A stretch of DNA of 20,365 nucleotides from Gemmatimonadota bacterium. Lineage in GTDB: Bacteria > JBHIER01 > G020348925. Location of the stretch: positions 935,413 through 955,777 of the forward strand of contig CP070758.1 in NCBI GenBank assembly GCA_020348925.1. The letters are read 5' to 3'. This document shows, one piece after another, positions 4,792-19,134 of this stretch. The notes under the pieces were generated by a model. The model searched no databases, was not told the DNA's origin, and saw only the letters and a program-made list of their open reading frames with translations. The position numbers and the translations under genes were made by a program. Numbering within the stretch: position 1 is the stretch's first letter; each line of letters starts with the position of its first letter.

Positions 4792-7236
4792 TTAAAATAT
4801 TTCATACCCAGAAAAATAGACATCGGCTTGCCTCTGCATCCTCCCGACCAAATAATCCTGAGGAAGAGGAACATCACCTTCCCTCGGTACGGTCCATAGA
4901 ACTCTCTGTTCACCGGATTCGTCTGTACTGGCGTAATACCCGCCCACATGTTTGAGCTCCAAGCGGATACGATACTGACCTGACTGGAGCCCTCTCCGTG
5001 TTGAAAGATCATCATACCGCAGTCTCCGGCCATCGTAGAACGAGGAGACCGTCCTGACGCTCCTCAAGGGCGTCACCTTGCGCAGGCGATTGTCCGCTTT
5101 CTCCCGCTGGCTCAGAGACGCCCAGAATTTCCAACGCGACGTCTCAAAGGGGGTACGGGCAAATGAAGGGCCATCGAAAACATCCCCTTGCGTTGTCCCA
5201 TAATCCCCATACACGATGAGATAGTTTCTCTTGCCGCCAATCGCACCTTCCAAATGCAGCTCGATTTTCAGGGGCTGACGAGGATCGATGAGATGTATGT
5301 CGAAGGGGATGGTGAACCACTGGCGAAAGTCCTCCTCCCCATAGACATCCGTCGAAAAGTTCCTATTCCGGTTTTCAGCCGCAGTTTGAAAAAGCTCCGG
5401 GTGCACGTTATTTTCGAATTTTACGCTGTCGGAGGTCAATCCCCCCGCATACCGCTTCACCACGGTGCCATTCACTTTGAAAACGACATCATACTCTTTT
5501 CCCAAACCACCCAGCATATCCACCTTCAGGGCAGATTTTTCAAACTTGCTCAAATCGAGATCCGACGGGAGTGTTATTTCCTGCACGATCCTTTCGTCGC
5601 CGTGGTCCAAAAGAGCCTCCCACTCGTGCCAATTTCTATCGTTCAAGCGCCAGCCAACGAACGAAAGAGAATAGAGCATGATGGGCAATAGGGATGCCAA
5701 CAGGATGTTCCCTTTGATCTTTCTCCACCTGTATAATTCGTGCAGGGCGATCCCAGAAACAATGAGGGCACCCAGCCCCAGCAGCGTCGTGCAATGAAAC
5801 ACGAACCGAATCGACGAAAAGGAAAGAAGTGAAAACAGCACACTGGTCTTCAATACGAAAAACAGGATCCACAATCCGATGAGCGGTATCACAATCCGGA
5901 CAAGCCCGCGTGATTTGAAAAGCGCCCACCCCTCTTTTCTGAAACGTTCGGAGCACCTCTTCAGGACACCCAGGAAAAATGACATCTGGAACACGGCGAA
6001 GATGATGATGAAGGGCATGGAGGGGACGTTGAACCGATGTTCATATCCCAGCGTCAAGTAGATTCCAATACTGTATACCACCGGTACGGCCATCAACAAC
6101 GCGTTTCGCCAGTCCCGACAAAACAGCGACAGAAAGAATCCCAACAGGCCCATAATGACGATGAGGCGATGCCAATGGAGCATCGGGGGAAGCGTTATCA
6201 GGCTCGTCCTCATTGGGGTTCGATAGGCGGGCTCACGCCACAAAAATGACGAGACTCCAATTCTGAGTATGACGGATTCGGCGAAGCGTTCCTTGACGAA
6301 TGTCTTGACAGCTTTCGAACAGGCCTCATTATAGTCACTCGAGACCTGAAACGCTTCGCGAAGCTCTCTGGTATGGACCGCTCCGGGATAATCGGTGTGA
6401 TACCCCTGGACATGGAGGTTGGAACCACGATAGAGAAGATCGCCCCCCTGCCTCGAATAGCTCCCGATCAGGGGTGTTCCAACGATGAGGCTGGTCAGGA
6501 TCATCCACAGGACCAGACACAAGAAAAACCCGGCCATGAAAAGTCCTGTCAATCTCTTCCAATTCTTGGTGTGACTTTTCCACAGAAAAAGAATCCCCAC
6601 AACTCCAAAGAATATGAAGGAATACTTGAACGCCGCCCGTGCGAGTATCAAGAAAAAAATGGATGCGCCAAAGAGTGCATATCGCTTCCCATCCGTTGAT
6701 GGGAACGTTGCCAATCCGATGTATACGACGGCAAGCACCATAAACACGGCAATCGGCTCCGACAGGATTGTCCCATCTATGTGGAGTAACGGTGTGTAAA
6801 AAATCGCAATAAGTGCGGAAAACAGACCGACTCTGTGGGAAAAGACCTGCCTCCCTATGAGGTAGATGAGAACCATGGATAACGACGACAGGAGCATGTG
6901 GAAGATATGAATGGTGAGCAGACTGTTCCCGAATATCAGAAAGAGGACACCGAAGCTGAAACTGACCAGGGGGCACCGGAAGAATCCCTTGGCATCGTTG
7001 TTCATCCCCAGTTCCGCCCGCTTCTCTTCATCCAGTTCCCCCTTGAGGAGCGGCAGTCCCACCTGGCTGAAATTTTGAACAATCGTCTTGAACCCAAGGG
7101 CTCCGAGATCATACCACCTGGCGTCCCCGGACAGTGGTCGCTGTTCAATATTTCCGTCAGCCAGATAGGCCGCTCGTATTCCCACGGACAGGGTAAACAG
7201 TATGACTATGTATGGAAGGACTTTTTTCGACACCAT
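4792..7236 (-). CDS. Large GT39-like membrane glycosyltransferase with C-terminal soluble domain
   Basis: An 814-residue protein and the first gene of the operon. An N-terminal helix (about 8-26) is followed by an extracytoplasmic loop with SGDARWYDLGA (36-46), matching the acidic catalytic loop of GT39/PMT-like enzymes. Many hydrophobic segments run to about residue 560. The rest, to 814, is hydrophilic and looks beta-rich (for example VVFKVNGTVVKRYAGG), probably an extracytoplasmic domain that could recognise an acceptor or glycan. Expected role: transfer of a sugar from a polyprenyl-phosphate donor to a surface acceptor. The ATG at 7236 has only a weak purine-rich upstream stretch. The 155-bp gap to the M24 gene makes this a plausible start of the operon, but I saw no convincing promoter there. 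Confidence 0.75.
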   Translation of the reverse strand: MVSKKVLPYIVILFTLSVGIRAAYLADGNIEQRPLSGDARWYDLGALGFKTIVQNFSQVGLPLLKGELDEEKRAELGMNNDAKGFFRCPLVSFSFGVLFLIFGNSLLTIHIFHMLLSSLSMVLIYLIGRQVFSHRVGLFSALIAIFYTPLLHIDGTILSEPIAVFMVLAVVYIGLATFPSTDGKRYALFGASIFFLILARAAFKYSFIFFGVVGILFLWKSHTKNWKRLTGLFMAGFFLCLVLWMILTSLIVGTPLIGSYSRQGGDLLYRGSNLHVQGYHTDYPGAVHTRELREAFQVSSDYNEACSKAVKTFVKERFAESVILRIGVSSFLWREPAYRTPMRTSLITLPPMLHWHRLIVIMGLLGFFLSLFCRDWRNALLMAVPVVYSIGIYLTLGYEHRFNVPSMPFIIIFAVFQMSFFLGVLKRCSERFRKEGWALFKSRGLVRIVIPLIGLWILFFVLKTSVLFSLLSFSSIRFVFHCTTLLGLGALIVSGIALHELYRWRKIKGNILLASLLPIMLYSLSFVGWRLNDRNWHEWEALLDHGDERIVQEITLPSDLDLSKFEKSALKVDMLGGLGKEYDVVFKVNGTVVKRYAGGLTSDSVKFENNVHPELFQTAAENRNRNFSTDVYGEEDFRQWFTIPFDIHLIDPRQPLKIELHLEGAIGGKRNYLIVYGDYGTTQGDVFDGPSFARTPFETSRWKFWASLSQREKADNRLRKVTPLRSVRTVSSFYDGRRLRYDDLSTRRGLQSGQYRIRLELKHVGGYYASTDESGEQRVLWTVPREGDVPLPQDYLVGRMQRQADVYFSGYEIF

Positions 7237-7391
7237 GCCATCTCTCGAATTCCGCTCTCCAAAACGCTCAAGTGTTTCCGCCGGGTGTGCCGTGACAAAT
7301 ACCTTGGGGAGCTTCCAGCCTCACGTGTTTTTTCTCTCGCTTATTAAGGTGACTCCGCACTTCACAAAACGATGTCATTCCGCCCGCCGCT

Positions 7392-8570
7392 CTATTTCAG
7401 CAGGGCCAGCACCTCCTCCTGCCTCGGCCCTGTGACAATGACCTCGTTGTCGTACGAGACGTAGACATCGATCTCCGAGCGCACGCCGAAGTCCTCCAGA
7501 TAGATGCCCGGCTCGATGGAGAAGCAGTTGCCCGGTGCGATCTTGCGCTCGTCCTTGGTTTCGAGATTGTCGATATTGACGCCGTTGCCGTGGACCTCCT
7601 CGCCGATGGAATGGCCGGTGCGGTGGGTGAAGTACTCGGCGTAGCCGGCATCTGTGACGACCTTGCGGCAGGCATCGTCCACCTCCCAGCCGTAGACGTC
7701 CTGGCCGGACCCGAAGCGCTCCTCCAGAAAGCTGACGGCCCGGTCCCGGGCACTCTTCACAATATCGAACACCTTGGCCTGCTTTTCCGGCACATCGGAA
7801 CCCACGTACCCCATCCAGGTGATGTCGAAATAGATGGCCCTAGGCCGGTCCATCTTGGCCCACAGGTCGATAAGCACCAAATCGCCCTCTCGAATCGGAT
7901 GTGTATTCTCAATCGTTGGCTCGAAGTGCGGATCGGAGGCGTGCTCGTTGACGGCCACAATGGGATCATCGGCCCAGGCCATGCCGTTCTCCTTATACTT
8001 CTCTAACATCATCTGCTGGATCTCGTATTCCGTCGGTGTCTGGCCGGCCTTGACCCGGCCGGCGATCTCCCCGAAGGCGAATTCGCAGATGGCGTGCATC
8101 ACTTTGCCCGCCTCGAGGTGGCTGTCATACTGCTCCTGCGTCAGACGGGCCTCGAACTGCTGCACCAGATCGGCGCTGGAGACCACTTCGACGCCGAAGC
8201 TCCGCACCAGGTCGATGGTCCCCCCGTCCACCAGGGAGACGTAGGGTATAGCGTTCATGGGCGAATACTGCATGGCCACCTTTTTGGCTCCACCCAGCAT
8301 CTCCCTGAGCAGCGTATGCTGCTGCGGCCAGGGCAGGTAGATCTGCTTCTCACCGGGAAGCGAATCCAGTTTCCCTCTCTCGATACTGTGGACCAGTTTT
8401 CTCGGCCCGCCCTCGGCCGGGATGAAGTAGTACCAGCGGCGGGTGGCCATGGCCTTGGGGTCCAGGCCCAAGATACTGGCGGCAATGGGATCGCGATTGT
8501 GGAAATCGTAGAAGAGCCAGCCATCGAAGCCATACTCTTTCAAGGCGTTTTGAATAGCTGCAAGGTCCAT
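7392..8570 (-). CDS. M24 family metallopeptidase (Xaa-Pro aminopeptidase-like)
   Basis: A 392-residue cytoplasmic enzyme with the two-domain architecture of aminopeptidase P/prolidase relatives: a creatinase-like N-terminal domain (about 1-140) and a pita-bread catalytic domain (about 145-390). Metal ligands can be read as D235 (LIDLW), D249 (YFDITW), H320 (THRTGHSIG), E353 (FSIEPG) and E366 (RSEIDVY), with H327 as the second active-site histidine. The spacing between the two Asp ligands (14) is wider than in the classical DxGxxxxGYxSDxTR form, as in a known M24 subgroup. Expected reaction: release of N-terminal residues next to proline, or dipeptide hydrolysis. The ATG at 8570 is fixed by AAGGAGG 5 nt upstream. 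It is visibly more GC-rich than its neighbours. Confidence 0.9.
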   Translation of the reverse strand: MDLAAIQNALKEYGFDGWLFYDFHNRDPIAASILGLDPKAMATRRWYYFIPAEGGPRKLVHSIERGKLDSLPGEKQIYLPWPQQHTLLREMLGGAKKVAMQYSPMNAIPYVSLVDGGTIDLVRSFGVEVVSSADLVQQFEARLTQEQYDSHLEAGKVMHAICEFAFGEIAGRVKAGQTPTEYEIQQMMLEKYKENGMAWADDPIVAVNEHASDPHFEPTIENTHPIREGDLVLIDLWAKMDRPRAIYFDITWMGYVGSDVPEKQAKVFDIVKSARDRAVSFLEERFGSGQDVYGWEVDDACRKVVTDAGYAEYFTHRTGHSIGEEVHGNGVNIDNLETKDERKIAPGNCFSIEPGIYLEDFGVRSEIDVYVSYDNEVIVTGPRQEEVLALLK

Positions 8571-8850: not shown

Positions 8851-9198
8851 GACTGTCAGTGCGACTCCGGTTTCGATCCGGGGAAACCACCACTTGAAGT
8901 CACGTTTACTGATAAATCTTATACGGCTGCAATCCAATGGGACTGGACTTTTTATCCAGGCACACCAGCCGAAGCGAAAGGACAAGGACCTCATACAGTG
9001 AAATAGGACAGGCCGGCTGAATACGATGTCTCGCTGAGTATATTATCTTCTGTGCCAGATGATTCTATCCCACAGGGAGATATAGAAATCAAAAGGAAAT
9101 ATATTAAAGTGACAGCAAATAACTTTAACGATGTGCGAAAAATGGAGAGTCACATCTTCGATCTTTCATTCTGTCACGCATTGCATTGGATTACGTAA
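8851..9198 (+). pseudogene. Remnant of a secreted protein: PKD domain with in-frame stop
   Basis: One plus-strand frame reads as a PKD (polycystic kidney disease/Ig-like) domain. It has the GKPPLEVTFTDKS opening, IQWDWTFYPG in place of the usual I..W.WDFGDG core, a segment like 'P.HT...PA.YDVSLSI', and KRKYIKVTA at the end. A TAG at 9004-9006 interrupts the domain between the W.W.F strand and the YDVSL strand. The frame stays open and domain-like past that stop until TAA at 9196-9198. There is no start codon or ribosome-binding site, and the frame is closed upstream by TGA at 8776-8778. PKD domains usually occur as repeats in large secreted proteins, so this is probably a decayed gene fragment. 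Confidence 0.65.
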
Positions 9199-9374
9199 AA
9201 AAGGTCGGTCTGGGACTCAGCAATGAATCGGGATCAAACCTCAAGAAAAAAACAAGGATATATTGTTTGCCAGGTGTTGCGTGATAAGTGCTTTGAGATT
9301 CATTCCCAGTATCCCTCGAAACTCGGTCCTCATTTCACTTGAAATTTTCGAAAATGCGAGTTTTTTTACCTCTA

Positions 9375-9402
9375 TCGGAAAATAGAAGCGTGTATTTTCC
9401 GA
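9375..9402. promoter_or_regulatory. Perfect 10-bp inverted repeat upstream of the M49 gene
   Basis: TCGGAAAATA (9375-9384) and TATTTTCCGA (9393-9402) are perfect complements around an 8-nt loop (GAAGCGTG). No T-run follows, so it is more like an operator or mRNA hairpin than a terminator. It lies about 97 bp upstream of the putative -35 of the peptidase gene. Function unknown. Confidence 0.45.
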
Positions 9403-9498
9403 TGGAAACGGAAATTCGTCTTCAGGCGCATGATGGCTTCAGGGAAACACAAAACATTCAGGATACATCAAGTGTTGCTCCAGAGTCACAAAAACCAT

Positions 9499-9527
9499 TT
9501 GCTTTCCCACAAAATCTTCAATATTTT
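9499..9527 (+). promoter_or_regulatory. Possible promoter of the M49 peptidase gene
   Basis: TTGCTT (9499-9504), a 17-bp spacer and TATTTT (9522-9527) lie about 50 bp upstream of the start codon. The match to the sigma-70 consensus is partial. Confidence 0.35.
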
Positions 9528-9577
9528 TGATGCTCATTCATTTTATGCAACCGTTTCACTTTTACAAGGAGGGTATC

Positions 9578-11245
9578 ATGTCCAAACGGATTGCGATTGA
9601 ACTTCTGTTACTGGCCCTTTTGGGACTGATGGTCGGTGTTGCGCCTTTGTGGGCGCAGTACAAGGCCGATGTGAAACACATCACCGGCCAGCTCAAAAAG
9701 TTGGCCCCGGTGACGATCTCCTATGACGAATCTATTCTCTCGGCTGAGGAGAAGAAGGTCATCGCCAAGCTCGTCGAGGCCTCCCGCATTATGGACGAAA
9801 TCTTTCTGCACCAGGTCTACAGTAAAAATATGAAAATACGGGACGAACTGGCCACATCCAAAGACCCCAGCGACTCAAAGGTGCTGGAGTATTTCACCAT
9901 CATGTTCGGCCCCTTCGACCGCCTCGACGAGGACAAACCGTTCCTGGGGACGGAGACGAAACCTCTGGGCGCCAACTACTATCCGGAGGACATAACCAAG
10001 GAGGAGTTCAACCAATGGCTCGAGGACCATCCTGAAGATCGAGAGGCCTTTGAGGGGACCTTCACCGTTATCAAGCGCCGGGGGAACAAACTGGCCGCCG
10101 TCCCCTACTCTGAAGAATATCGGAAATGGCTTGAGCCTGCGGCGAAAATCCTCAAAGAGGCAGCTCAAATCACCTCGGATGCCTCTTTGAAAAAGTACCT
10201 CAACTCCCGAGCCGAGGCGTTCTTATCCAACGACTACTACCAGAGCGACATCGACTGGATGGACCTCAAAGGTTCCATCGAAGTCGTCATCGGACCGTAC
10301 GAGGTCTACGAGGACAATCTCTTCGGCTACAAGGGTGCTTTTGAGTCCTTCGTCACCGTGGTCGACCCGGTGGAGAGCGAACGGTTGGCGACTGTGGCCA
10401 ATTATCTCAACGACATGGAGCGCAACCTGCCCATCCCTGACGAGCACAAAAATCCCAACAGAGGGGCCTCCTCCCCGGTCAAAGTCGTACAGGAAATCTT
10501 CACCGGCGGTGACACCAAGGCTGGCATTCAGACGACGGCCTTCAACCTGCCCAACGACGAGCGGGTCCGGGAGGCCAAGGGCAGCAAAAAGGTCATGCTC
10601 AAGAATGTATCCCAGGCCAAGTTCAACAATTCCTGGATCCCCATCGCCGACGTCGTCCTGGATCCCGAGCAGCGCCAGGAGGCCTCCTTCGACGCCTATT
10701 TCACCCACGTCCTCCTCCATGAGTTCTCCCACGGCCTCGGACCCGGCAACATCACCCTAACCGACGGCACCCAGACCACCGTCAACAAGGCTCTTCAAGA
10801 CACCTATTCCACCATGGAAGAGGCCAAGGCCGACGTTCTTGGGAATTACAATTTTCAGTTCCTCATGGACAAGGGCGTCTATCCCAAAGACTGGGAGCGG
10901 ACCGTCTACATCTCCTACCTGGGCGGCATGTTCCGCTCCATCCGTTTCGGCATCAACTCCGCCCACGGACGGGCCAACATGATTCAATTCAACTACCTGT
11001 TGAACAAAGGCGCTTTTCTCTACGACGAAGGGACCGGCCGGTTCAGCGTCGATTTTAAGAAGATTAAGAATGTGGTGCGTGATTTAGCTCAAGAGCTGCT
11101 CATGATCCAGGCCCAGGGTGATTATGAAGGTGCCAAAAGGTTTATCGACACATACGGAAACATGACACCTGTAATGGAGGCCACCTTGGCGAGGCTCTCC
11201 CACGTCCCCATCGACATCAAGCCCATCTACGCCATCGCGCAATAG
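9578..11245 (+). CDS. Secreted M49-like (dipeptidyl-peptidase III related) zinc peptidase
   Basis: A 555-residue protein. The N-terminus is a signal peptide (ISKRIAIEL-type basic start, a leucine-rich core, then APLWAQ with likely cleavage around residues 24-27). The zinc motif is H381-E-F-S-H385-GLGP, followed by YSTMEEAKADVLG with E414/E415. This is the pattern of the Nudix-associated branch of peptidase family M49 (HExxHGxGP...EEAKAD), not the classical DPP III HEXXGH with one extra residue. The downstream FRSIRFGINSAHGRAN and LLNKGAF segments also match that branch. There is no Nudix domain. The activity is probably removal of dipeptides or short-peptide hydrolysis in the periplasm or outside. 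Start: ATG 9578 with AAGGAGG 5-6 nt upstream, preferred to an in-frame ATG at 9527. Own promoter and terminator, so monocistronic. Confidence 0.85.
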   Translation: MSKRIAIELLLLALLGLMVGVAPLWAQYKADVKHITGQLKKLAPVTISYDESILSAEEKKVIAKLVEASRIMDEIFLHQVYSKNMKIRDELATSKDPSDSKVLEYFTIMFGPFDRLDEDKPFLGTETKPLGANYYPEDITKEEFNQWLEDHPEDREAFEGTFTVIKRRGNKLAAVPYSEEYRKWLEPAAKILKEAAQITSDASLKKYLNSRAEAFLSNDYYQSDIDWMDLKGSIEVVIGPYEVYEDNLFGYKGAFESFVTVVDPVESERLATVANYLNDMERNLPIPDEHKNPNRGASSPVKVVQEIFTGGDTKAGIQTTAFNLPNDERVREAKGSKKVMLKNVSQAKFNNSWIPIADVVLDPEQRQEASFDAYFTHVLLHEFSHGLGPGNITLTDGTQTTVNKALQDTYSTMEEAKADVLGNYNFQFLMDKGVYPKDWERTVYISYLGGMFRSIRFGINSAHGRANMIQFNYLLNKGAFLYDEGTGRFSVDFKKIKNVVRDLAQELLMIQAQGDYEGAKRFIDTYGNMTPVMEATLARLSHVPIDIKPIYAIAQ

Positions 11246-11273
11246 AACTTTTTGCTACACATAGTTTTCAGAC

Positions 11274-11306
11274 AAACGCCCCGTCACAAGCGGGGCGTTT
11301 TATTTT
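11274..11306 (+). terminator. Strong intrinsic terminator after the M49 peptidase gene
   Basis: AAACGCCCCG (11274-11283) pairs perfectly with CGGGGCGTTT (11291-11300) around the loop TCACAAG, followed by the T-rich stretch TATTTT. It sits 28 bp after the stop codon: a textbook Rho-independent terminator. Confidence 0.92.
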
Positions 11307-11343
11307 CCCCGGAATGCTAACCTGGATACTTCATAAAATAAAA

Positions 11344-11416
11344 GTAAACTCAACGTAACATGAATATATTTATGGAGTTAAAATAAAGATGCATTTTTAC
11401 ATTTGTTCCATGGCAT
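11344..11416 (+). repeat. 73-nt inverted repeat, right copy
   Basis: Partner of the copy at 292-364, in opposite orientation about 11 kb away. It starts 38 bp after the terminator of the M49 gene. It could be a dispersed intergenic repeat, or a relic of the ends of a mobile unit that carried the segment between the copies. Confidence 0.7.
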
Positions 11417-11435
11417 GTTCGGCGATTACAGACCA

Positions 11436-11522
11436 TGTCATTCCGAGTTTATGCCGGAATCTCCTGACTAGAAAGTATGTTGCGTTAAGGGAGGAGATTC
11501 GGGCACTCCGGCCGTAACGACA
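11436..11522. repeat. REP/MITE-like imperfect palindrome
   Basis: Left arm TGTCATTCCGAG...GCCGGAATCTCC (about 11436-11465) and right arm GGAGATTCGGGC...GGCCGTAACGACA (about 11493-11522) are imperfect reverse complements around a roughly 27-nt centre. 'TGTCATTCCGAG...GGAATCT' is a common intergenic palindromic repeat form in many bacterial genomes, and fragments of the same type occur near 187-215. No coding capacity. Confidence 0.6.
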
Positions 11523-11578
11523 GTTCATGAATAAAGCAGGCTAATATGCATCGGAAAAAGAATTTCTTAAAATACTGC

Positions 11579-11608
11579 TTGACTTGGTTACTCATTAGTG
11601 ACTATTAT
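11579..11608 (+). promoter_or_regulatory. Promoter A of the radical SAM operon
   Basis: TTGACT (11579-11584), an 18-bp spacer and TATTAT (11603-11608). The spacer contains an imperfect dyad (GTTACTCATTAGTGAC). The element closely resembles the promoter at 16245-16274: same spacing, same -10, and GACTATTATTA in both. It gives a leader of about 350 nt before the first gene at 11966. Confidence 0.6.
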
Positions 11609-11638
11609 TATTCAAATTTGTGTAAGATGTAACCTCGT

Positions 11639-11657
11639 AACAAGGAGGTGAACTCCT
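11639..11657 (+). promoter_or_regulatory. Orphan Shine-Dalgarno with self-pairing hairpin in leader A
   Basis: AACAAGGAGGTGAACTCCT holds a strong ribosome-binding sequence whose AGGAG (11643-11647) can pair with CTCCT (11653-11657). It lies more than 300 nt upstream of the first gene. The only frame it could serve is a six-codon GTG frame ending in TAA. The same AAC(A/G)AGGAGGTGA box is found at 16303-16315. Confidence 0.45.
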
Positions 11658-11798
11658 CGGATATATAAACAGCCTTAATATTTCTCCGAACACGACGAAC
11701 ACCATCGAATAATTCTTATATGACTATTTTCGTCGATACCGTCCATCTTTCAAATTTTATTAGATTTGAAGCTGAGCGATTCATCAGACCAAAATACC

Positions 11799-11917
11799 GG
11801 ATGTATCATTCTGAATCCCGAATCGAGTTCGGGACAGGCTCCGCAGCGCAAAGTGATGAATATCATTCATAAGGCAAGAGATTCTTCGCCCGATACATCG
11901 AGCTCAGAATGACATCG
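11799..11917. repeat. MITE-like palindromic repeat in the leader of the radical SAM operon
   Basis: TCATTCTGA (11806-11814) and TCAGAATGA (11904-11912) are inverted outer arms, with GGATGTATC and GATACATCG further extending the symmetry. Inside is a perfect 7-bp hairpin, TCCCGAA (11816-11822) and TTCGGGA (11828-11834). It looks like a non-coding miniature palindromic repeat of the 'CATTCTGA...TCAGAATG' type. It sits between promoter A and the first gene, so it becomes part of the leader RNA. Confidence 0.55.
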
Positions 11918-11965
11918 AAGTCACATTGTCAGTCAGGAATCCCTCAATTTAGGCGAGAGTAAGAT

Positions 11966-13339
11966 ATGTTTCCCAGCAAGTATACGAACACTATTGATAT
12001 CCGGGATTTCGATTGTGATTATGATTATGTTGTCTATAACTCTCTGACCGGATATGTCTCGATGATTGACCGGACGTGCTATGATATAGTAAAGGAAGTA
12101 GAAAACGATTCATCGGCTGGAGGGCATATTTCGAAATTGGACGAAGGCAGAAGCACTTTTCTGACATCACGCGGGTACATTTTAAGGCACGCACAACAAG
12201 ATACCGATACTCTGATAAAACTTACTTCCTTTATTGAGACGTTAAAGAACAGTTACGAACAATTCAGCATCGTCTTTTATCCAGCGGAAAAGGATTCGGC
12301 CTGTGCGCAAGAAAAGCTCACCGCCATCTTCAATACAATTGCGACACTTGCGACTTCAAAGAATCTCGAAAGATATTTCTTCCACTTTTGGGCCTTTCAT
12401 GACATTGAAACCCTTCTCTTTGAGGCCTCAGTGAGAATGCTGAAAAATGTCATAGATCAGGAACTGGCGCTGAGACAATGCGAAAAACTGTACATCACCC
12501 TTCATTCCAACGGAGTTGAGAATCTGAATTTTCATCAGCTGACACCTCTCAATACCTCGAAGGTGCTGAAAATCTTTGTTGACTGTTCGATAGTGAAAGA
12601 ATTTCATCATCCGAACGACTATGTTAGCCGCGTTAAGGATACTATTAAACAGGCGGCCGAAGTCGGATTTGAAACGCGTTTATATTTTATCATTACTGAG
12701 GAAAATAAAACTTTTGTTCTGAACGATCTGCTGGACCGGTTTGTTGTCGGCGGATTATTTCCCTGGACCATTTATCGATTCTATGTCTTACCCTTTAAAG
12801 AGGAAAGGCACAAAGCCAGAATCATGTGCGATATGAATGTTACCCATTGGTCATCCCTGGGCTCACTTATTCGAGATATGGCCGAAACGCCCAAGTATCA
12901 CTTGACTTCCTTGTTCGGAGGAGGAGTTATATCAAAATTTCAGTTCCTCCTGAACAACAGGGAGCGGTTGCTTCCGGACGTTTACTACTGTCCTTATATT
13001 CAAAACTCCTACGTCTTCGACCTGGACGGGAACATCTTTTCATGCCCTGAAGCGTGTTATGCTCGAGAACAGCCCGAGCACACACGAGTAGGGACATATA
13101 TCCCCAAGTTGATGGTAAAGAAAAAAAGGTTGCATGTGTGGCGAGATCGAAAGGTTACAGAGTTGAAAAAATGTATGGATTGCTGCGACGCTTTCATCTG
13201 CGCAGGCGGATGTCCCTACGAATCGCTCAGAGCGAAAGGGAATCCGTATGAAACAGAATGTCAGCCTGTAAGCAAAATCCTCCGAACAGGCATAGCGGCA
13301 CATCTGAACTCTTTCCTGAGTGATTTTGGCCCCAGGTAA
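11966..13339 (+). CDS. Degenerate radical SAM protein with complete SPASM domain
   Basis: A 457-residue protein with the layout of a radical SAM/SPASM peptide maturase but no radical SAM cluster motif. Residues 15-85 (YVVYNSLTGYVSMID...LTSRGYIL) resemble the N-terminal RRE-like region of such maturases. At about 98-116 the usual FYPTxxCNxxCxYC is replaced by SIVFYPAEKDSACAQEKL, leaving one Cys (C113). The GGE region is also lost, although SNGV (181-184) and the barrel pattern remain. The C-terminus is an intact seven-Cys SPASM: C342-x12-G-x4-C360, then C403-x2-C406-x5-C412-x3-C416 and C432. It should bind auxiliary Fe-S clusters but not cleave SAM. First gene of a four-gene operon; ATG 11966 has only a weak AGAG upstream. 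Probably a scaffold or partner of the enzyme at 15085-16188. Confidence 0.85.
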   Translation: MFPSKYTNTIDIRDFDCDYDYVVYNSLTGYVSMIDRTCYDIVKEVENDSSAGGHISKLDEGRSTFLTSRGYILRHAQQDTDTLIKLTSFIETLKNSYEQFSIVFYPAEKDSACAQEKLTAIFNTIATLATSKNLERYFFHFWAFHDIETLLFEASVRMLKNVIDQELALRQCEKLYITLHSNGVENLNFHQLTPLNTSKVLKIFVDCSIVKEFHHPNDYVSRVKDTIKQAAEVGFETRLYFIITEENKTFVLNDLLDRFVVGGLFPWTIYRFYVLPFKEERHKARIMCDMNVTHWSSLGSLIRDMAETPKYHLTSLFGGGVISKFQFLLNNRERLLPDVYYCPYIQNSYVFDLDGNIFSCPEACYAREQPEHTRVGTYIPKLMVKKKRLHVWRDRKVTELKKCMDCCDAFICAGGCPYESLRAKGNPYETECQPVSKILRTGIAAHLNSFLSDFGPR

Positions 13340-13375
13340 TAGTAGTTCTTCTTGAGATAGGATTTGATTGAAATC

Positions 13376-14692
13376 ATGAGAGTAGTCTTAGTTTCACCAC
13401 AATCGGAGAAGCCCTTTACCATCAGTTATAAAGTACGAAAAAGTAAATTGAGTCCACCCACGGGCATACTGTATCTGGCCTCGGCTATTCAGGACAACTT
13501 TGAGACGGCAGTAATTGACAGTCAATTTTACGACGTATCCTCGGAAAAAATAGCCGAGCGGATACTTTCGTTATATCCCGATGTGGTAGGACTAAGCGTG
13601 AACTATCACTTTTTTTTGAGAAATGCAAAAAAAATTGCCCAAAACGTAAAAAAAATTGAACCGAATATTACGATTGTTTTCGGCGGAAGTTTTGCGACCT
13701 TCCTGGCCGATGAGCTCATAAAAGAAACGTTCATAGATATCGTTGTTTTAAAAGAGGGTGAGGTATCGTTTGGCCTGTGTCTGAAACGATTGGAACGCAA
13801 GACATCGCTCAGGGACATTCCGGGAATTGTATTTAAAGAGAATAGCCGTACGCACCGAAATGAATTTTCCTCGTACATCAATAATCTGGACAGTGTTTCT
13901 TTTCCGGATTATTCTTTTTTAGAAAATCCTGAACAGTATCTGGCAAAAATCGTGTCCAGCCGCGGCTGCAATTTCAACTGTATCTACTGCACGACACCGA
14001 CTATGTGGAAAAAATGGAGGGCCCGGACTCCCTCAAATATCATTGAGGAGATAAAGGACAAGGTGAGAAGATTCAACATCGATAGTTTTCACTTTGCCGA
14101 CGATAACTTTTGTGTCGACAAAAAACGCATGTATGAGATTATGCATCGTATTGAAAAAGAAAATTTAGGAATCCGCCTGGGCTTTTCTTCGAGAATCGAG
14201 CTGGTGGATGACGACATGCTCGAACAATGCGCCAAAGCCAACTTCAAGACCATCTTCTTCGGGGTCGAGAGCGGAAGCGAACGCATACTGAATCATTTGA
14301 GAAGGAGATATTCAGTTTCCGATATCGAAAAAACGATTGACAAAGCTATCGAATGCGGGATCCTCCCATTTGTGTCGTTTATGATAGGGATGCCTTGGGA
14401 GACGGCCGATGATATTGAACAAACGTTCCGTCTGATGCAACGCATAAACACACCCGCCATAGGCCTCCATGTGTTCACACCGTATCCGGGCACAGAGGTG
14501 TACAATCATCCTGAAAAATACGGTATAACCGTTGAGGTGCATCATCCCGAGGATACGATCGGTGAGACCGTCCTGCATCGCACCAGACACTTGCGTTCGG
14601 AGGATCTCAGGAAAATGTGGATCGAGGGATTAGGCATTGCCGCGAAGCGGGAAAGGGAAGCTAAGGCATATCTTGGACGGTTAGCGTTTTAA
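13376..14692 (+). CDS. B12-binding domain radical SAM protein
   Basis: A 438-residue protein of the cobalamin-dependent radical SAM class (class B methylase-like). Residues 1-150 form a Rossmann-like B12-binding domain (PPTGILYLASAI, VVGLSVN, IVFGGSFAT, VVLKEGE). It lacks an obvious DxHxxG, as is common in this class. The radical SAM motif is C198-x3-C202-x2-C205 in SSRGCNFNCIYC. IFFGVESGSERIL, FMIGMPWET and FTPYPGTEVY match later strands of the family. Reactions known for the class include methylation of unactivated carbon; the substrate here is unknown. I chose ATG 13376; a TTG at 13364 would add four residues. It begins 36 bp after the SPASM protein gene, in the same operon. Confidence 0.88.
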   Translation: MRVVLVSPQSEKPFTISYKVRKSKLSPPTGILYLASAIQDNFETAVIDSQFYDVSSEKIAERILSLYPDVVGLSVNYHFFLRNAKKIAQNVKKIEPNITIVFGGSFATFLADELIKETFIDIVVLKEGEVSFGLCLKRLERKTSLRDIPGIVFKENSRTHRNEFSSYINNLDSVSFPDYSFLENPEQYLAKIVSSRGCNFNCIYCTTPTMWKKWRARTPSNIIEEIKDKVRRFNIDSFHFADDNFCVDKKRMYEIMHRIEKENLGIRLGFSSRIELVDDDMLEQCAKANFKTIFFGVESGSERILNHLRRRYSVSDIEKTIDKAIECGILPFVSFMIGMPWETADDIEQTFRLMQRINTPAIGLHVFTPYPGTEVYNHPEKYGITVEVHHPEDTIGETVLHRTRHLRSEDLRKMWIEGLGIAAKREREAKAYLGRLAF

Positions 14693-14704
14693 GACGAGAA
14701 CATA

Positions 14705-15067
14705 ATGCGTGAGAAATTAATAGCAACGGTTTTCGAAGAGGTCCGAAATCTTGTCCCGATGAGAACGGACCCTCTCAAAAGCCGTCTGGAAGAAAAAGGA
14801 CGGATACTCATTGTTTCTCTTCAGGGTCAGGAGAAACGCAGGGAACTGCACTGGCTGAACCGGACGGCTTCGGAAGTTCTGAACATGTGTGACGGTCGTC
14901 GTACCATCGACCAAATTGTTCAGGAAATGTCACAGACATACGCACAGACAAAAAAAGGAACCGTAACCGAGGATGTCATTTCTGCCGTCAGGGTCATGGA
15001 AGAAAAGGGCCTCGTGCGTTTCGAATCTCAATCCATATCGGCAGAGTGCGACATTTCCCATCCGTAG
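14705..15067 (+). CDS. PqqD-like protein (RiPP recognition element)
   Basis: A 120-residue protein. Its centre reads LHWLNRTASEVLNMCDGRRTIDQIVQEM...VTEDVISAVRVMEEKGLVRFE, the PqqD pattern (LN.TA..I...CDG..T...I...L, then a DV...L..L...GLV end). PqqD proteins are small winged-helix chaperones that bind the leader of a precursor peptide and present it to a radical SAM/SPASM enzyme. It lies 12 bp after the B12 radical SAM gene and 17 bp before the radical SAM gene. About 45 residues precede the PqqD core, longer than in classical PqqD. The start has only a weak purine-rich site. This protein is the main evidence that the cassette acts on a ribosomal peptide. Confidence 0.85.
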   Translation: MREKLIATVFEEVRNLVPMRTDPLKSRLEEKGRILIVSLQGQEKRRELHWLNRTASEVLNMCDGRRTIDQIVQEMSQTYAQTKKGTVTEDVISAVRVMEEKGLVRFESQSISAECDISHP

Positions 15068-15084
15068 AAAAAGTGTGAAGTGAC

Positions 15085-16188
15085 ATGAATGAAATGATCG
15101 AAACCCTACTCAACGACTGTAAAGGCGCTCGAATCATCGATGCGAACTGCAACATATTCGACGCACGACGGTTGTTCCAATCCTTGATGGACAGAGATCG
15201 CGACAGCAAGAGAGCTGGAATTACACCGAAGGATGTCTTCGAGGTGCCTTTGAAAGTTCACTTCGAATACACGAGCCAGTGCAACATGGACTGCCTCTTC
15301 TGCTACAACACATCCTCAACGTCCCGAGAGCAAGGGCTCGACACCGATGAGATTGTACGTACCATCGAAGAAATGGCTGTCATCGGGGTGATGGAGGTGG
15401 GGCTATCCGGAGGCGAAGTTTTCTGCGATCAGAAGCTTCTCCTTCGAATTATAAAAATGCTGAACGATCATTCCATCGCAATCTCGATCAAAACAAACGG
15501 TTGGTTCTTGAACGAGAGGACCGTTGAAAAGCTCTCACCGTACACTTTTCAGAGCATTGACGTCAGTATTGACGGCTCCAGTGAAACAGTACACGACAGA
15601 ATGCGGGCAAAACCGGGAAGTTGGAGAAAAGCAATACACGCGTTGAAGCTCTTGAAGGAGGCGGGCGTATATTCAAAAGCCGCCTGCCTCGTAACGGGGG
15701 AAAATGTGGAATCCCTTGAAGATTATATCGACCTCTGTTTCTATCTGGGGGCAAAGGAAGTTATGTTCACTCCGTGCATCATGTTTGGTCGGGCCGCCCA
15801 GAACAAAGACAGGATGGGTCTCACGGAACAGCAATTCGAGGAGGCTTCGTCAATCATTGTAAGAAAACACCTGCAGTATCGCGGTTTCATGAAAACGTAT
15901 CTCGCTTTGGATTTTGGATACGAAATATTGTCAAAGGTTCTCCTCACTCAGAATTCGTGTGTCATAAGATCGGATGGGTCTGTGCACCCATCGTGTTTGA
16001 TTCCGATATCCTTCGGAAATATCCGAGACCAAAAACTGAAAGACATATGGAATTCCGGTTTGAATCGATTACTTACGAAGAAAGAGGTTCAAGATTTTGT
16101 GAGTACTTTGAAATTTGAAAAAACGGCTACCCTGAGATTGCTGCGGACTTCGCTAACCCAGGACGTTGTGCACTGTTATCACGCCTGA
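15085..16188 (+). CDS. Radical SAM peptide maturase with truncated SPASM domain
   Basis: A 367-residue protein. The radical SAM motif is C66-x3-C70-x2-C73 in TSQCNMDCLFCYN. It is followed by the SAM-binding LSGGE segment, IKTNGWFLNE, DVSIDGSSETVHDRMR and VTGENVESLEDYI, all as in SPASM-type maturases. The auxiliary-cluster domain starts normally (C292-x5-G-x5-C304, then SFGNIRDQKLKDIWNS), but the CX2CX5CX3C part is missing. After about residue 345 the sequence is unlike the family and holds only one Cys near the end. An A6 run at 16117-16122 could hide a frameshift, but neither alternative frame restores the missing cysteines. Last gene of the operon. It would form the 5'-deoxyadenosyl radical and modify the peptide, perhaps together with the SPASM-only protein. 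Confidence 0.88.
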   Translation: MNEMIETLLNDCKGARIIDANCNIFDARRLFQSLMDRDRDSKRAGITPKDVFEVPLKVHFEYTSQCNMDCLFCYNTSSTSREQGLDTDEIVRTIEEMAVIGVMEVGLSGGEVFCDQKLLLRIIKMLNDHSIAISIKTNGWFLNERTVEKLSPYTFQSIDVSIDGSSETVHDRMRAKPGSWRKAIHALKLLKEAGVYSKAACLVTGENVESLEDYIDLCFYLGAKEVMFTPCIMFGRAAQNKDRMGLTEQQFEEASSIIVRKHLQYRGFMKTYLALDFGYEILSKVLLTQNSCVIRSDGSVHPSCLIPISFGNIRDQKLKDIWNSGLNRLLTKKEVQDFVSTLKFEKTATLRLLRTSLTQDVVHCYHA

Positions 16189-16244
16189 GGGAAGAAATTC
16201 ATGTTTGGCATCGATTCCGAGAGAGAATGGTTTTAAAAAATTGC

Positions 16245-16274
16245 TTGACATCGTCAGTCATAGTTGACTATTAT
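16245..16274 (+). promoter_or_regulatory. Promoter B, upstream of the Tat-signal peptide gene
   Basis: TTGACA (16245-16250), an 18-bp spacer and TATTAT (16269-16274). A dyad AGTCA-TAGT-TGACT (16256-16269) lies in the spacer and touches the -10, a good place for a repressor. It is a near duplicate of the promoter at 11579-11608, and the AACGAGGAGGTGA box at 16303-16315 repeats the one in that leader. So the maturase operon and this gene probably share a regulator. Confidence 0.65.
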
Positions 16275-16314
16275 TAACGAAGTTGCAGATTCATCTTTTG
16301 GCAACGAGGAGGTG

Positions 16315-16518
16315 ATGTTACTCGAATACGTTTACACTCCATCCGCTTCTTTTGTTTCAGCAGTACCACGAAACATTATCTTTCGAGCAATCTTGTTAGA
16401 ATTATTCATGCTTAATCCTGACTTGCCGAAGTGGGTTCCATGTACGCATGAGTGTAAAGTTTTTCACAAGGATTCGGTCACATATCCAAGGGGAGGATTT
16501 TCAAATGACAACAAATGA
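16315..16518 (+). CDS. Doubtful small ORF in the leader of the Tat-signal peptide gene
   Basis: A 67-codon frame starts with ATG two bases after the strong AGGAGG at 16307-16312, which is closer than usual. The predicted product begins MLLEYVYTPSASF and has a hydrophobic middle (NIIFRAILLELFML) and two Cys (CTHEC). It overlaps the start of the next gene by 14 nt. I do not recognise it. It may be a leader peptide, translationally coupled to the gene behind it, or only a chance frame after a regulatory ribosome-binding box. Confidence 0.25.
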   Translation: MLLEYVYTPSASFVSAVPRNIIFRAILLELFMLNPDLPKWVPCTHECKVFHKDSVTYPRGGFSNDNK

Positions 16519-16870
16519 CAAGAAAGGTCGGAGCGACGAAAATCGAGAGGCAAAACCAACGGACAAACAGAACCAGACTGAACGGCGTCAATTCCTGAGG
16601 GATGCAGCGGCTGCCGCAGCAGGTGCGGCCCTTTTAACTGCCGGTGCGGGAAAAGCCATGGCACAAGAATGTCCGAAAAAGAAGTTAACTCTCGATGAGA
16701 TGAAGGCATTTATGAGAGATATTTCAAGTGCGGCTGATGTTGACATGGAAAAAGTCGATGCACAGCTTGCAATTGTTGAGCAATATATGAGGCCTCTTGT
16801 TGATGAGGATGGCAACATTCCTGACGCCTATGTCAATGCTTTGCTGGCGCAGCCAACATTGGGGGCATAA
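16505..16870 (+). CDS. Small Tat-exported protein, candidate substrate of the radical SAM cassette
   Basis: A 121-residue protein. Residues 1-25 are hydrophilic and charged. R27-R28 lies in ERRQFLRDAAAAAAG, a twin-arginine (RRxFL) signal with an Ala/Gly-rich core and a likely AMA-QEC cleavage after residue 53. The mature part (54-121) is short, mostly helical in appearance, rich in acidic residues and Met, with one Cys (C56), and ends in LLAQPTLGA. I do not recognise the family. The ATG at 16505 has GGGGAGG 7 nt upstream; an in-frame ATG at 16448 is less likely. Its place right after the PqqD/radical SAM operon and its shared promoter type make it the best candidate precursor or modified protein. 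The long pre-RR stretch could be a recognition leader. It may instead be an unrelated Tat substrate. Confidence 0.75.
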   Translation: MTTNDKKGRSDENREAKPTDKQNQTERRQFLRDAAAAAAGAALLTAGAGKAMAQECPKKKLTLDEMKAFMRDISSAADVDMEKVDAQLAIVEQYMRPLVDEDGNIPDAYVNALLAQPTLGA

Positions 16871-17154
16871 GGGCAGATATTTCTATAATTCCCTATATAC
16901 GGAACAAAAGGAAAGTTCTTTTGAGATGGAGAATGCGCCGTGAGAGCGTTTGTTCTGTATAGCTTCTTCACAGTAGGATAATGCTGTGTTATAATACTAA
17001 TAATTTGATGGCCATAGCTTGCACCCAAGACCTCCTGACGTTAAGGAGAAAAATAAAAAAATCGTCGTACTTGAGGCTGTACCTTTTTGGGATTATCCAA
17101 TACCAAAGGTTCTAAGATATCACGAGTTGTTATCATACGTAAAGGATGGGATCC
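16871..17154. other. Intergenic region between the Tat-signal peptide gene and the mosaic repeat gene
   Basis: No accepted gene. It contains the TATAAT promoter at 16967-16995 and a small dyad, CTCCT/AGGAG (about 17031-17047). A stop-free frame runs from about 17003 into the next gene (protein-like KKIVVLEAVPFWDYPIPK) but has no good start codon. No convincing terminator for the Tat-signal gene was found. Confidence 0.5.
16967..16995 (+). promoter_or_regulatory. Promoter of the mosaic repeat protein gene, with spacer dyad
   Basis: TTCACA (16967-16972), a 17-bp spacer and a perfect TATAAT (16990-16995). CACAG (16969-16973) and CTGTG (16984-16988) form an inverted repeat across the spacer, a possible operator. 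The gene starts about 160 bp downstream. Confidence 0.6.
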
Positions 17155-19134
17155 ATGTTAAGAATCGGTTTGCGTAGGGCATTTTTATTAGCTGTCGTTA
17201 CGGCAATCGCCATTTTTTCCGGATTGAGCCTCGGGGATTCCTATTACTTCGAGTTGGAAACACCTGTATGCTTCGACCCTCATGGGATCGAGTACTATCC
17301 TGAGCATGGTACTTTTGTTCTCATCGACCCTACCTATGATTTCATGTATGAAGTTGGGCCTGAAGGGCATCTTGTTTCCAAACACGACTTAGGGACTCCC
17401 GCATGTTTTGATCCCGAAAAGATCGCCCACCACCCTGAGAGAGGGACGTTCTTCCTCATTGATCCCGACTACGATATGTTCTTTGAGGTAACGCCTACCG
17501 GTGGATTGGTTTCCTCGTGGGATGTTGACATCCCGACATGTTTTGATCCCGACGGGATCGAGTACTATCCTGAGCATGGAACCTTTCTCCTGACCGATCC
17601 CGCCTACGATTTCATGTATGAAGTTGGGCCTGAAGGGCATCTTGTTTCCACACACGATTTAGGAACTCCCGCATGTTTTGATCCCCACCTGATCGCTTAT
17701 CATCCCGGACAGCTCAACGTTTGGTTCTGTGATCCTGATGAGGATTTAAAGTACATCTATATACTTCAGTCTGTCTTTGAACCCGATGATCCCCTTTTCG
17801 ATCCCATGGATATGCATCCCTCTGATGGTGTGATCCCTCCTGATCTTGTACCCGAATATCCCATTGATTCAGGATTCATCGTATTCGTCGATCCTTTATG
17901 TGATGCGCTTATAGTTCATCCCATGGACACGGATGGAGATACCATCCCTGATTTCTACGATAACTGTCCTGATATGTATAATCCCGATCAGGTGGACAGC
18001 GACGGCGATGGAATCGGCGATGCCTGCGAAATCTGCGAAGGTATGAGAGGGGATCCCAACGGCGATGGAGAGAGTAATATTCTGGATGTTCTGTATCTGG
18101 TACGCGGTATTCTCAATCTTGAGGATTTATCCTTTTGTGAACGTGTGAACGGCGACTGCGATGGCAGCGGTGGTCAAATCGATATTCTGGATGTGTTGGG
18201 AACGGTCAATTTAGTACTGAGAATTTCCACCTGCGTCACCTCCTGTGAGGAGTTGAACTGCGACGACAATAATCCGTGTACAAGAGATTACTGTAACCGG
18301 TTGCATGCGCGATGTATCCATGCTGCAGTTGCCGGCGGGATACCCTGTAATGACGGGAATCTCTGCACCGATAACGACCTGTGTGCCGATGGCGTCTGCC
18401 TGGGCACACCGAAGGACTGCGACGACGGCGACCCGTGCACACAGGACATCTGTAACCCGGCGGACGGTACGTGTTACCACTCTTACATCGGCGAGCCGGA
18501 GATATGCGACGACGGTATTGACAATGACTGTGACGGACTCATCGATTGCGACGATGACGACTGCATTGTCGATTATGATGGGGACGGGTACTCCGACGAA
18601 CCCTGCGGCGACGATTGTGACGATGAGGACAGGAATACCTATCCAGGAGCCCTGGAACTCTGCGACGGAGTGGACAACGACTGCGACGACCAGATCCCGG
18701 CCGACGAGGCCGACAATGACCAGGACGGCTACAGGGTGTGTGATGGTGTCTGCGATGACAGCGAGGACGTGATCTTTCCAAGGGCTCCGGAACTCTGCGA
18801 CGGAATGGACAACGACTGCGACAGCCAGATCCCGGCCGACGAGGCCGACAACGACCAGGACGGCTCCAGGGTCTGTGATGGTGACTGCGATGACAACGAC
18901 GACGATATCTTTCCAGGGGCTCCGGAACTCTGCGACGGAATGGACAACGACTGCGACGACCAAATCCCGGCCGACGAGGCCGACAACGACCAGGACGGCT
19001 ACAGGGTCTGTGATGGTGACTGCGACGACGGCGACCGGACCATCAATCCAGGGGCCACGGAGAATTGCAACGACCGCATTGACAATGACTGCGATGGTTT
19101 GACAGACTACGATGACGCGGAGGATTGTCCCTGA
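17155..19134 (+). CDS. Secreted mosaic protein: 45-aa repeats, TSP type 3, dockerin and MopE-like metal-binding repeats
   Basis: A 659-residue protein with an N-terminal signal peptide (basic LRIGLRRAF, then a hydrophobic core to about residue 27). Order: four 45-residue repeats beginning CFDP (39-83, 84-128, 129-173, and a diverged one from 174), whose GTFxLxDPxYDxMxEVxPxGxLVS pattern looks like beta-propeller or NHL-type blades; a thrombospondin type 3 stretch (about 258-290, DTDGDTIPD, DSDGDGIGDACE); a dockerin-like pair of Ca loops (about 300-360, DPNGDGESNILDVL, IDILDVL); a Cys-rich module (about 360-445, DDNNPCTRDYC); then MopE-like putative metal-binding repeats (449-659, CDGxDNDCD) including three nearly identical 45-residue units. 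Probably a surface or extracellular Ca/metal-binding adhesin. ATG 17155 is chosen for its AAAGGA 9 nt upstream; an ATG at 17146 overlaps that site. Confidence 0.85.
   Translation: MLRIGLRRAFLLAVVTAIAIFSGLSLGDSYYFELETPVCFDPHGIEYYPEHGTFVLIDPTYDFMYEVGPEGHLVSKHDLGTPACFDPEKIAHHPERGTFFLIDPDYDMFFEVTPTGGLVSSWDVDIPTCFDPDGIEYYPEHGTFLLTDPAYDFMYEVGPEGHLVSTHDLGTPACFDPHLIAYHPGQLNVWFCDPDEDLKYIYILQSVFEPDDPLFDPMDMHPSDGVIPPDLVPEYPIDSGFIVFVDPLCDALIVHPMDTDGDTIPDFYDNCPDMYNPDQVDSDGDGIGDACEICEGMRGDPNGDGESNILDVLYLVRGILNLEDLSFCERVNGDCDGSGGQIDILDVLGTVNLVLRISTCVTSCEELNCDDNNPCTRDYCNRLHARCIHAAVAGGIPCNDGNLCTDNDLCADGVCLGTPKDCDDGDPCTQDICNPADGTCYHSYIGEPEICDDGIDNDCDGLIDCDDDDCIVDYDGDGYSDEPCGDDCDDEDRNTYPGALELCDGVDNDCDDQIPADEADNDQDGYRVCDGVCDDSEDVIFPRAPELCDGMDNDCDSQIPADEADNDQDGSRVCDGDCDDNDDDIFPGAPELCDGMDNDCDDQIPADEADNDQDGYRVCDGDCDDGDRTINPGATENCNDRIDNDCDGLTDYDDAEDCP
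17269..17808 (+). repeat. Four tandem 135-bp repeats (CFDP blades)
   Basis: Units begin at 17269, 17404, 17539 and 17674, exactly 135 bp apart. Units 1 and 3 are nearly identical in DNA (for example the stretch from GGGATCGAGTACTATCC on), more so than adjacent units, which suggests a 270-bp duplication. The fourth unit is diverged and its end is not sharp. Confidence 0.85.
18655..19059 (+). repeat. Three tandem 135-bp MopE-like repeats
   Basis: Units start at 18655, 18790 and 18925 (GAACTCTGCGACGGA), exactly 135 bp apart, with a fourth partial unit at 19060. Each encodes ELCDGxDNDCDxQIPADEADNDQDG..., and the DNA is nearly identical between units, so the array is young or homogenised by recombination. 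Confidence 0.9.

Follow-up and report, generated by a model that had tools for sequence, protein, structure and literature searches.

A putative radical SAM maturation cassette with a pseudo-radical-SAM/SPASM protein and a probably co-regulated Tat-signal small protein in a Gemmatimonadota bacterium

Introduction

What is modified by a cassette that encodes, side by side, a SPASM protein devoid of a SAM site, a B12-binding radical S-adenosylmethionine (SAM) protein, a PqqD-family protein, and a second radical SAM protein, and is the small protein with a twin-arginine translocation (Tat) signal encoded downstream its substrate? This question is raised by a stretch of 20,365 nucleotides from a Gemmatimonadota bacterium (GenBank assembly GCA_020348925.1, contig CP070758.1, positions 935,413 to 955,777), referred to here as the window and numbered from its first letter. 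The four genes of the cassette are designated P1 to P4, and that of the small protein P5. The reading developed below, which we regard as evenly poised, is that P1-P4 constitute a maturation cassette resembling those for ribosomally synthesized and post-translationally modified peptides (RiPPs), with the co-regulated, Tat-signal-bearing P5 as its substrate.

Results

An earlier note, made from the sequence of the window alone, had listed five same-strand genes, and all of them are present (11966-13339, 13364-14692, 14705-15067, 15085-16188, and 16448-16870). The first four are closely packed on the plus strand, with gaps of 24-36 nt (depending on the start of P2, for which ATG 13376 is more likely than TTG 13364), 12 nt, and 17 nt. 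For each of P1-P5, relatives were sought among 372-386 sampled whole genomes, and for P1 also in two genome-contig scans; the genome set used contains no other member of this phylum.

The description of P1 as a degenerate radical SAM protein with only a SPASM domain holds. Its C-terminal SPASM domain scores 37.3 bits against TIGR04085 (cut-off 27), the sole NCBIfam model matched above its cut-off, and no Pfam family, radical SAM included, matches the protein. P1 aligns along its length with eight relatives from seven of the sampled genomes at 17-21% identity, the search matches themselves having spanned the SPASM end only. Both the CxxxCxxC and the GGEP motifs are present in 8/8 of these relatives, and neither is found in P1. 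Indeed, at the position occupied by CxxxCxxC in all eight, the SAM-cluster loop of P1 is deleted or replaced (YPAEKDSAC). Given the loss of both motifs, P1 cannot act as a SAM-cleaving maturase on its own. Seven SPASM cysteines, on the other hand, are invariant, P1 included (C342, C360, C403, C406, C412, C416, and C432), and these correspond in order to the ligands of the first (C352, C370, C421) and second (C408, C411, C417, C440) auxiliary clusters of PapB (PMC10470005). The P1 family profile matches CteB (5WGG) over 8-439 with an E-value of 5.5e-39, and P1 is, as judged from its sequence, a degenerate member of the CteB-type family in which a RiPP recognition element (RRE) precedes the radical SAM and SPASM domains. 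Because the N-terminal domain of CteB is a leader-binding RRE (PMC6231123), that of P1 may be one as well.

The sequence of P4 suggests the reverse of the defect in P1, namely an intact SAM-cluster motif and the loss of the second-cluster half of the SPASM domain. The "active-type" label given to P4 in the earlier note therefore stands for the SAM-cluster motif, CNMDCLFC, which is retained together with GGE, and fails for the SPASM domain, which is truncated. P4 scores 93 bits in Pfam, and its Radical_SAM match and a partial SPASM match both exceed the Pfam cut-offs. In the C-terminal region C292, C304, and the last cysteine, C364, are kept, and the CxxCx5C second-cluster motif is missing. This motif is kept in 10/10 P4 relatives from other genomes (by alignment, with a motif count against 11 relatives), and its absence is limited to P4 and a second protein of the same genome (L018/L092); the two do not appear as sister sequences in a quick tree, which is weakly resolved. 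A frameshift as the cause of the missing half was rejected, CxxCx5C being found in neither of the other frames. Among solved structures the best match to P4 is SkfB. PqqD genes adjoin or lie near most P4 relatives in other genomes (L094, L098-L102, L105), and P3-P4 therefore looks like a standard pair to which the pseudo-radical-SAM protein, the B12 enzyme, and the Tat-signal protein are additions.

The second protein lacking CxxCx5C belongs to another peptide-modification-type cassette of the same genome (L018, G000:C1, about 3897.6-3906.8 kb), which contains this radical SAM protein, a 233-aa protein, a radical SAM/SPASM-PqqD fusion (6635-8089), and a PqqD fusion protein. An ABC transporter is encoded about 3.4 kb beyond it.

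The assignments of P2 as a B12 radical SAM protein and of P3 as PqqD-like are borne out by Pfam, the cut-offs being exceeded for both. P2 scores 99.3 bits with Radical_SAM and 66.0 bits with the B12-binding family, its CxxxCxxC motif reads CNFNCIYC, and it reaches no NCBIfam equivalog cut-off. Two relatives in other genomes with the same C-terminal form (L046, L047) have neither PqqD nor SPASM partners nearby. P3 is 120 aa long with an N-terminal extension of about 45 aa; it scores 47.7 bits with Pfam PqqD and lies under the cut-offs of TIGR03859 (37.4 of 46) and TIGR04302 (23.2 of 100). Elsewhere in the same genome a stand-alone PqqD-domain protein (L019, 7688-8104) is encoded directly 3' of, and on the same strand as, a large transporter-like protein with multiple membrane passes.

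The earlier note had placed a Tat-signal protein at the end of the cassette. The signal is supported by TIGR01409 (20.3, cut-off 16.7), with Pfam TAT_signal reaching 9.1 of 22.7; it runs from ERRQFLRD to GKAMA, followed at the predicted cleavage site by QE, and leaves a predicted mature part of 68 aa with one cysteine. To call P5 the fifth operon gene would be too simple, however, as it lies 316 nt 3' of P4 behind a promoter-like element of its own. Its start is more likely at ATG 16505, with GGGGAGGA upstream, which yields a protein of 121 aa. The mature part matched no family in Pfam, and no convincing homologue of P5 was found in its own genome, in 386 genomes, or in plasmids. Matches in two genomes (E 5e-4) were rejected as relatives: one lies inside a 347-aa coding frame, and the second, in a frame broken by two stops, coincides in part with the gene of a Tat-signal oxidoreductase.

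The proposed link between the cassette and P5 goes beyond mere adjacency, resting on a repeat common to the two promoter regions. The promoter-like pair of the operon, TTGACT-18-TATTAT, at 11579-11608 is followed by the conserved AAGGAGGTGA, and that of P5, TTGACA-18-TATTAT, at 16245-16274 by GAGGAGGTGA. The alignment of the two upstream regions begins at 11548 for P1 and at 16208 for P5, and AGGAGGTGA is found further down in both. The local alignment score for the intergenic regions is 95, whereas dinucleotide-shuffled sequences gave 43 ± 6.8, with a maximum of 70 in 500 shuffles. When the operon copy was compared with the whole genome by BLAST, only the P5 copy, besides itself, was returned with an E-value below 1 (4.5e-4, 80% over 44 nt). 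Since this sequence is present at the operon and at P5 and a search of the genome found no further copy, P5 is probably co-regulated with the operon. The shared sequence is the strongest link between the two, and it is independent of conservation elsewhere. Note that both 18-nt spacers show partial dyad symmetry (11587-11602 and 16253-16268; 12 and 10 of 16 positions), and these dyads possibly represent an operator. In other bacteria such promoter spacers are the binding place of MerR-type regulators. No riboswitch or known RNA was found within positions 9000-17200 of the window, a single chance match falling far under its gathering score.

Neither the contig scans with P1 nor the genome samples contained a second copy of the whole set. 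The contig scan with the single P1 protein gave no relatives, the wide P1 alignment gave no usable pattern for scanning, and a 3-sequence alignment returned only a Candidatus Aerophobetes contig, seemingly a locus already sampled (L029). Among the 386 sampled genomes the P1 relatives are all active and align to the SPASM end. That no relative with the whole set turned up is weak evidence either way: the genome stands alone in its phylum, a contig scan depends on a short, nearly exact pattern, and the genomes sampled are few and distantly related. In a single case (L031, 7245-10918) the gene for an active radical SAM/SPASM relative of P1 has a gene for a 73-aa peptide on its 5' side and, directly 3', one for a B12 radical SAM protein; this locus is a possible RiPP cluster pairing both enzyme types.

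Provided in Table 1 are the positions of the features. The operon is preceded, at a distance of 720 nt, by a gene for a secreted-looking M49 (dipeptidyl-peptidase III family) peptidase (9527-11245). Short inverted-repeat-like segments (GGAATCTCCTGAC...GGAGGAGATTC) lie before the operon at 11430-11530 and 11790-11940 and may be remnants of small mobile elements. Located 3' of P5 is a gene for a large secreted-looking protein (17146-19134), whose MopE-type metal-binding repeats are accompanied by a repeated motif in the N-terminal part, CFDPxxIxYxPExGTFxLxDPxYD.

Table 1. Features of the cassette and of P5, in window coordinates
Feature	Position	Strand	Description
Operon upstream region	11548-11655	+	Promoter-like element and AAGGAGGTGA; aligns with 16208-16320
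P1	11966-13339	+	Pseudo-radical-SAM/SPASM protein with CteB-type N-terminal domain
P2	13376-14692	+	B12-binding radical SAM protein; alternative start TTG 13364
P3	14705-15067	+	PqqD-family protein, candidate leader-binding chaperone
P4	15085-16188	+	Radical SAM protein with truncated C-terminal SPASM domain
P5 upstream region	16208-16320	+	Promoter-like element and GAGGAGGTGA
P5	16505-16870	+	121-aa Tat-signal small protein, proposed substrate; alternative start ATG 16448

Discussion

The role in RiPP or protein maturation that the earlier note had proposed for the cassette is consistent with its composition: the PqqD gene lies directly 5' of a radical SAM gene resembling those of PqqE and GeoRSP, and it is accompanied by a B12 radical SAM protein and a SPASM-only partner. 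We propose the following sequence of events. In the cytoplasm P3, and probably also the RRE-like N-terminal domain of P1, would hold P5 by its N-terminal leader/Tat region, and P4, as the SAM-cleaving enzyme, and P2, as a cobalamin radical SAM enzyme, would each modify the 68-residue C-terminal part. P1, unable to cleave SAM, would serve as a substrate-binding and/or electron-transfer partner, its two auxiliary [4Fe-4S] clusters possibly forming a relay. The modified P5 would then be exported through Tat and its leader removed. The tight operon, the position of the PqqD gene, and the upstream sequence common to the operon and P5 all favor this scheme, as do the opposite losses in P1, which keeps every SPASM cysteine without the SAM-cluster cysteines, and in P4. 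The separate parts have precedents. In work on PapB, electrons were reported to pass from one radical SAM protein to another, different one, likely via the second auxiliary cluster (PMC10470005). In clusters that also encode RRE partners, B12 radical SAM enzymes introduce methyl groups or cross-links into RiPP precursors (PMC10635010, PMC12257519), and RiPP precursors bearing a signal peptide, of the Sec type, are known from the bufferins (PMC12452194).

Several observations weigh against the scheme. P5 would be transcribed, as its promoter-like element suggests, from that element and not from the operon; it has one cysteine only after the signal, and a core motif could not be recognized in it; neither a dedicated transporter nor a protease was identified among the operon genes; and the set as a whole was found only once. 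One auxiliary cluster suffices for Twitch-type enzymes such as SkfB (PMC6231123), and P4 thus need not depend on P1. AlphaFold models of P1 (from a 2-sequence alignment) and P4 were too poor, with a mean predicted local distance difference test score of 38-39, and were discarded.

As an alternative, the cassette might act on another peptide or larger protein encoded elsewhere, with P5 a neighbor that shares its regulator and is, say, an accessory protein or metal carrier exported by Tat. The separate promoter-like element of P5, its distance from P4, and its lack of a recognizable RiPP core motif would all fit, as would the fact that the usual cargo of the Tat system is folded, cofactor-bearing proteins. 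By inspection, however, neither the 720-nt upstream gap nor the spaces between the genes contain a further open reading frame with a clear ribosome-binding site, and the common upstream sequence is found at the operon and P5 only; we consider this explanation rather unlikely. A pathway to a small molecule or cofactor such as pyrroloquinoline quinone (PQQ), mycofactocin, or haem d1, with a free metabolite or a cofactor derived from a peptide as the substrate of the radical SAM proteins, is suggested by the proximity of P4 to PqqE, mycofactocin, and NirJ/AhbD-type models, by the membership of PqqD in the PQQ pathway, and by the distant likeness of P2 to BchE (167 of 481 bits). None of the cut-offs of these models is reached, though, and the operon contains no peptidase, dehydrogenase, or tetrapyrrole gene, which makes such a pathway improbable. 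Finally, P1 could be a decaying gene in a degrading operon rather than part of a specialized system, given that it has lost its catalytic SAM motif, that P4 has lost half of its SPASM domain, and that the second cassette of the same genome shows the same P4-type loss. The long intact frames, the short gaps, and the retention of all seven SPASM cysteines in P1 speak against decay, as does the recurrence of inactive SPASM partners in other systems, such as the GeoRSP SPASM protein present in L100, and we view it as very improbable.

Within the proposal of a maturation cassette acting on P5, a more specific form can be envisaged, namely a split SPASM radical enzyme. P4 would lack the outer auxiliary-cluster site, and P1 would contribute both clusters in trans as an obligatory relay and as a leader platform, the two acting with the B12 enzyme on a Tat-exported small protein. 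We hold this form to be unlikely. The route of the electron between the auxiliary and SAM clusters in radical SAM enzymes is an open question, and a protein with auxiliary-cluster sites only, next to an operon partner with a SAM site and no second-cluster motif, would make the intermolecular transfer proposed for PapB directly testable. For RiPP precursors even a Sec signal has been called highly unusual (PMC12452194). If a precursor modified by radical SAM enzymes did carry a Tat signal, that too would be unusual; one literature search revealed no case with Tat.

Comparison with known systems

The claim that the cassette falls outside the GeoRSP and SynChlorMet systems was checked with the NCBIfam models, and no protein reached an equivalog cut-off. 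A literature search on pseudo-radical-SAM proteins, GeoRSP, and SynChlorMet returned unrelated papers only. The GeoRSP system (TIGR04302 for PqqD, TIGR04303 for the radical SAM/SPASM protein, and TIGR04304 for the SPASM-only protein) likewise combines a PqqD protein, a radical SAM/SPASM protein, and a SPASM protein without a SAM site, adjacent and on one strand. P4 scores 118.9 bits, however, against a cut-off of 400 for TIGR04303, P3 falls similarly short of TIGR04302, and P1, which derives from a CteB-like family instead, has no match to TIGR04304 at E ≤ 1; the B12 radical SAM and Tat-signal proteins are extra. The same models were applied, as a positive control, to the GeoRSP-type loci L100 and L102, which come from two of the sampled genomes. 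In L100 the radical SAM protein reached the cut-off (408.3), with the PqqD protein at 61.3 of 100 and the SPASM protein at 100.9 of 300, its best match; in L102 the PqqD protein scored 58.7, under the cut-off yet far above P3. By these scores, therefore, the cassette is organized like GeoRSP, the nearest organization, but is not a member of the GeoRSP families.

SynChlorMet (ScmD/E/F), which by its curated description unites a PqqD relative with two SPASM-family proteins, is comparable in content. The ScmD, ScmE, and ScmF models are not reached, with scores of 12.4 of 100 (P3), 96.7 of 400 (P4, ScmE), and 72.3 of 400. P1 shows the same succession of three domains as the CteB/SCIFF and PapB-type maturases and has the full seven SPASM cysteines, but it lacks CxxxCxxC and GGEP. 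In the manner of ApyD and PbsB, a B12-binding radical SAM enzyme is encoded beside a putative RRE-type partner in what may be a peptide-modifying cluster, but P2 reaches only 165.5 of 750 with the ApyD model, and the MNIO, P450, arginase, and methyltransferase partners are all absent. The bufferins, like the proposed P5, are small-protein precursors with an N-terminal export signal; theirs is a Sec rather than a Tat signal, their modifying enzymes are MNIOs rather than radical SAM enzymes, and their core is cysteine-rich (PMC12452194). Overall, the gene set and the upstream sequence that it shares with P5 suggest a novel form of the known systems by which small proteins are chemically remodelled.

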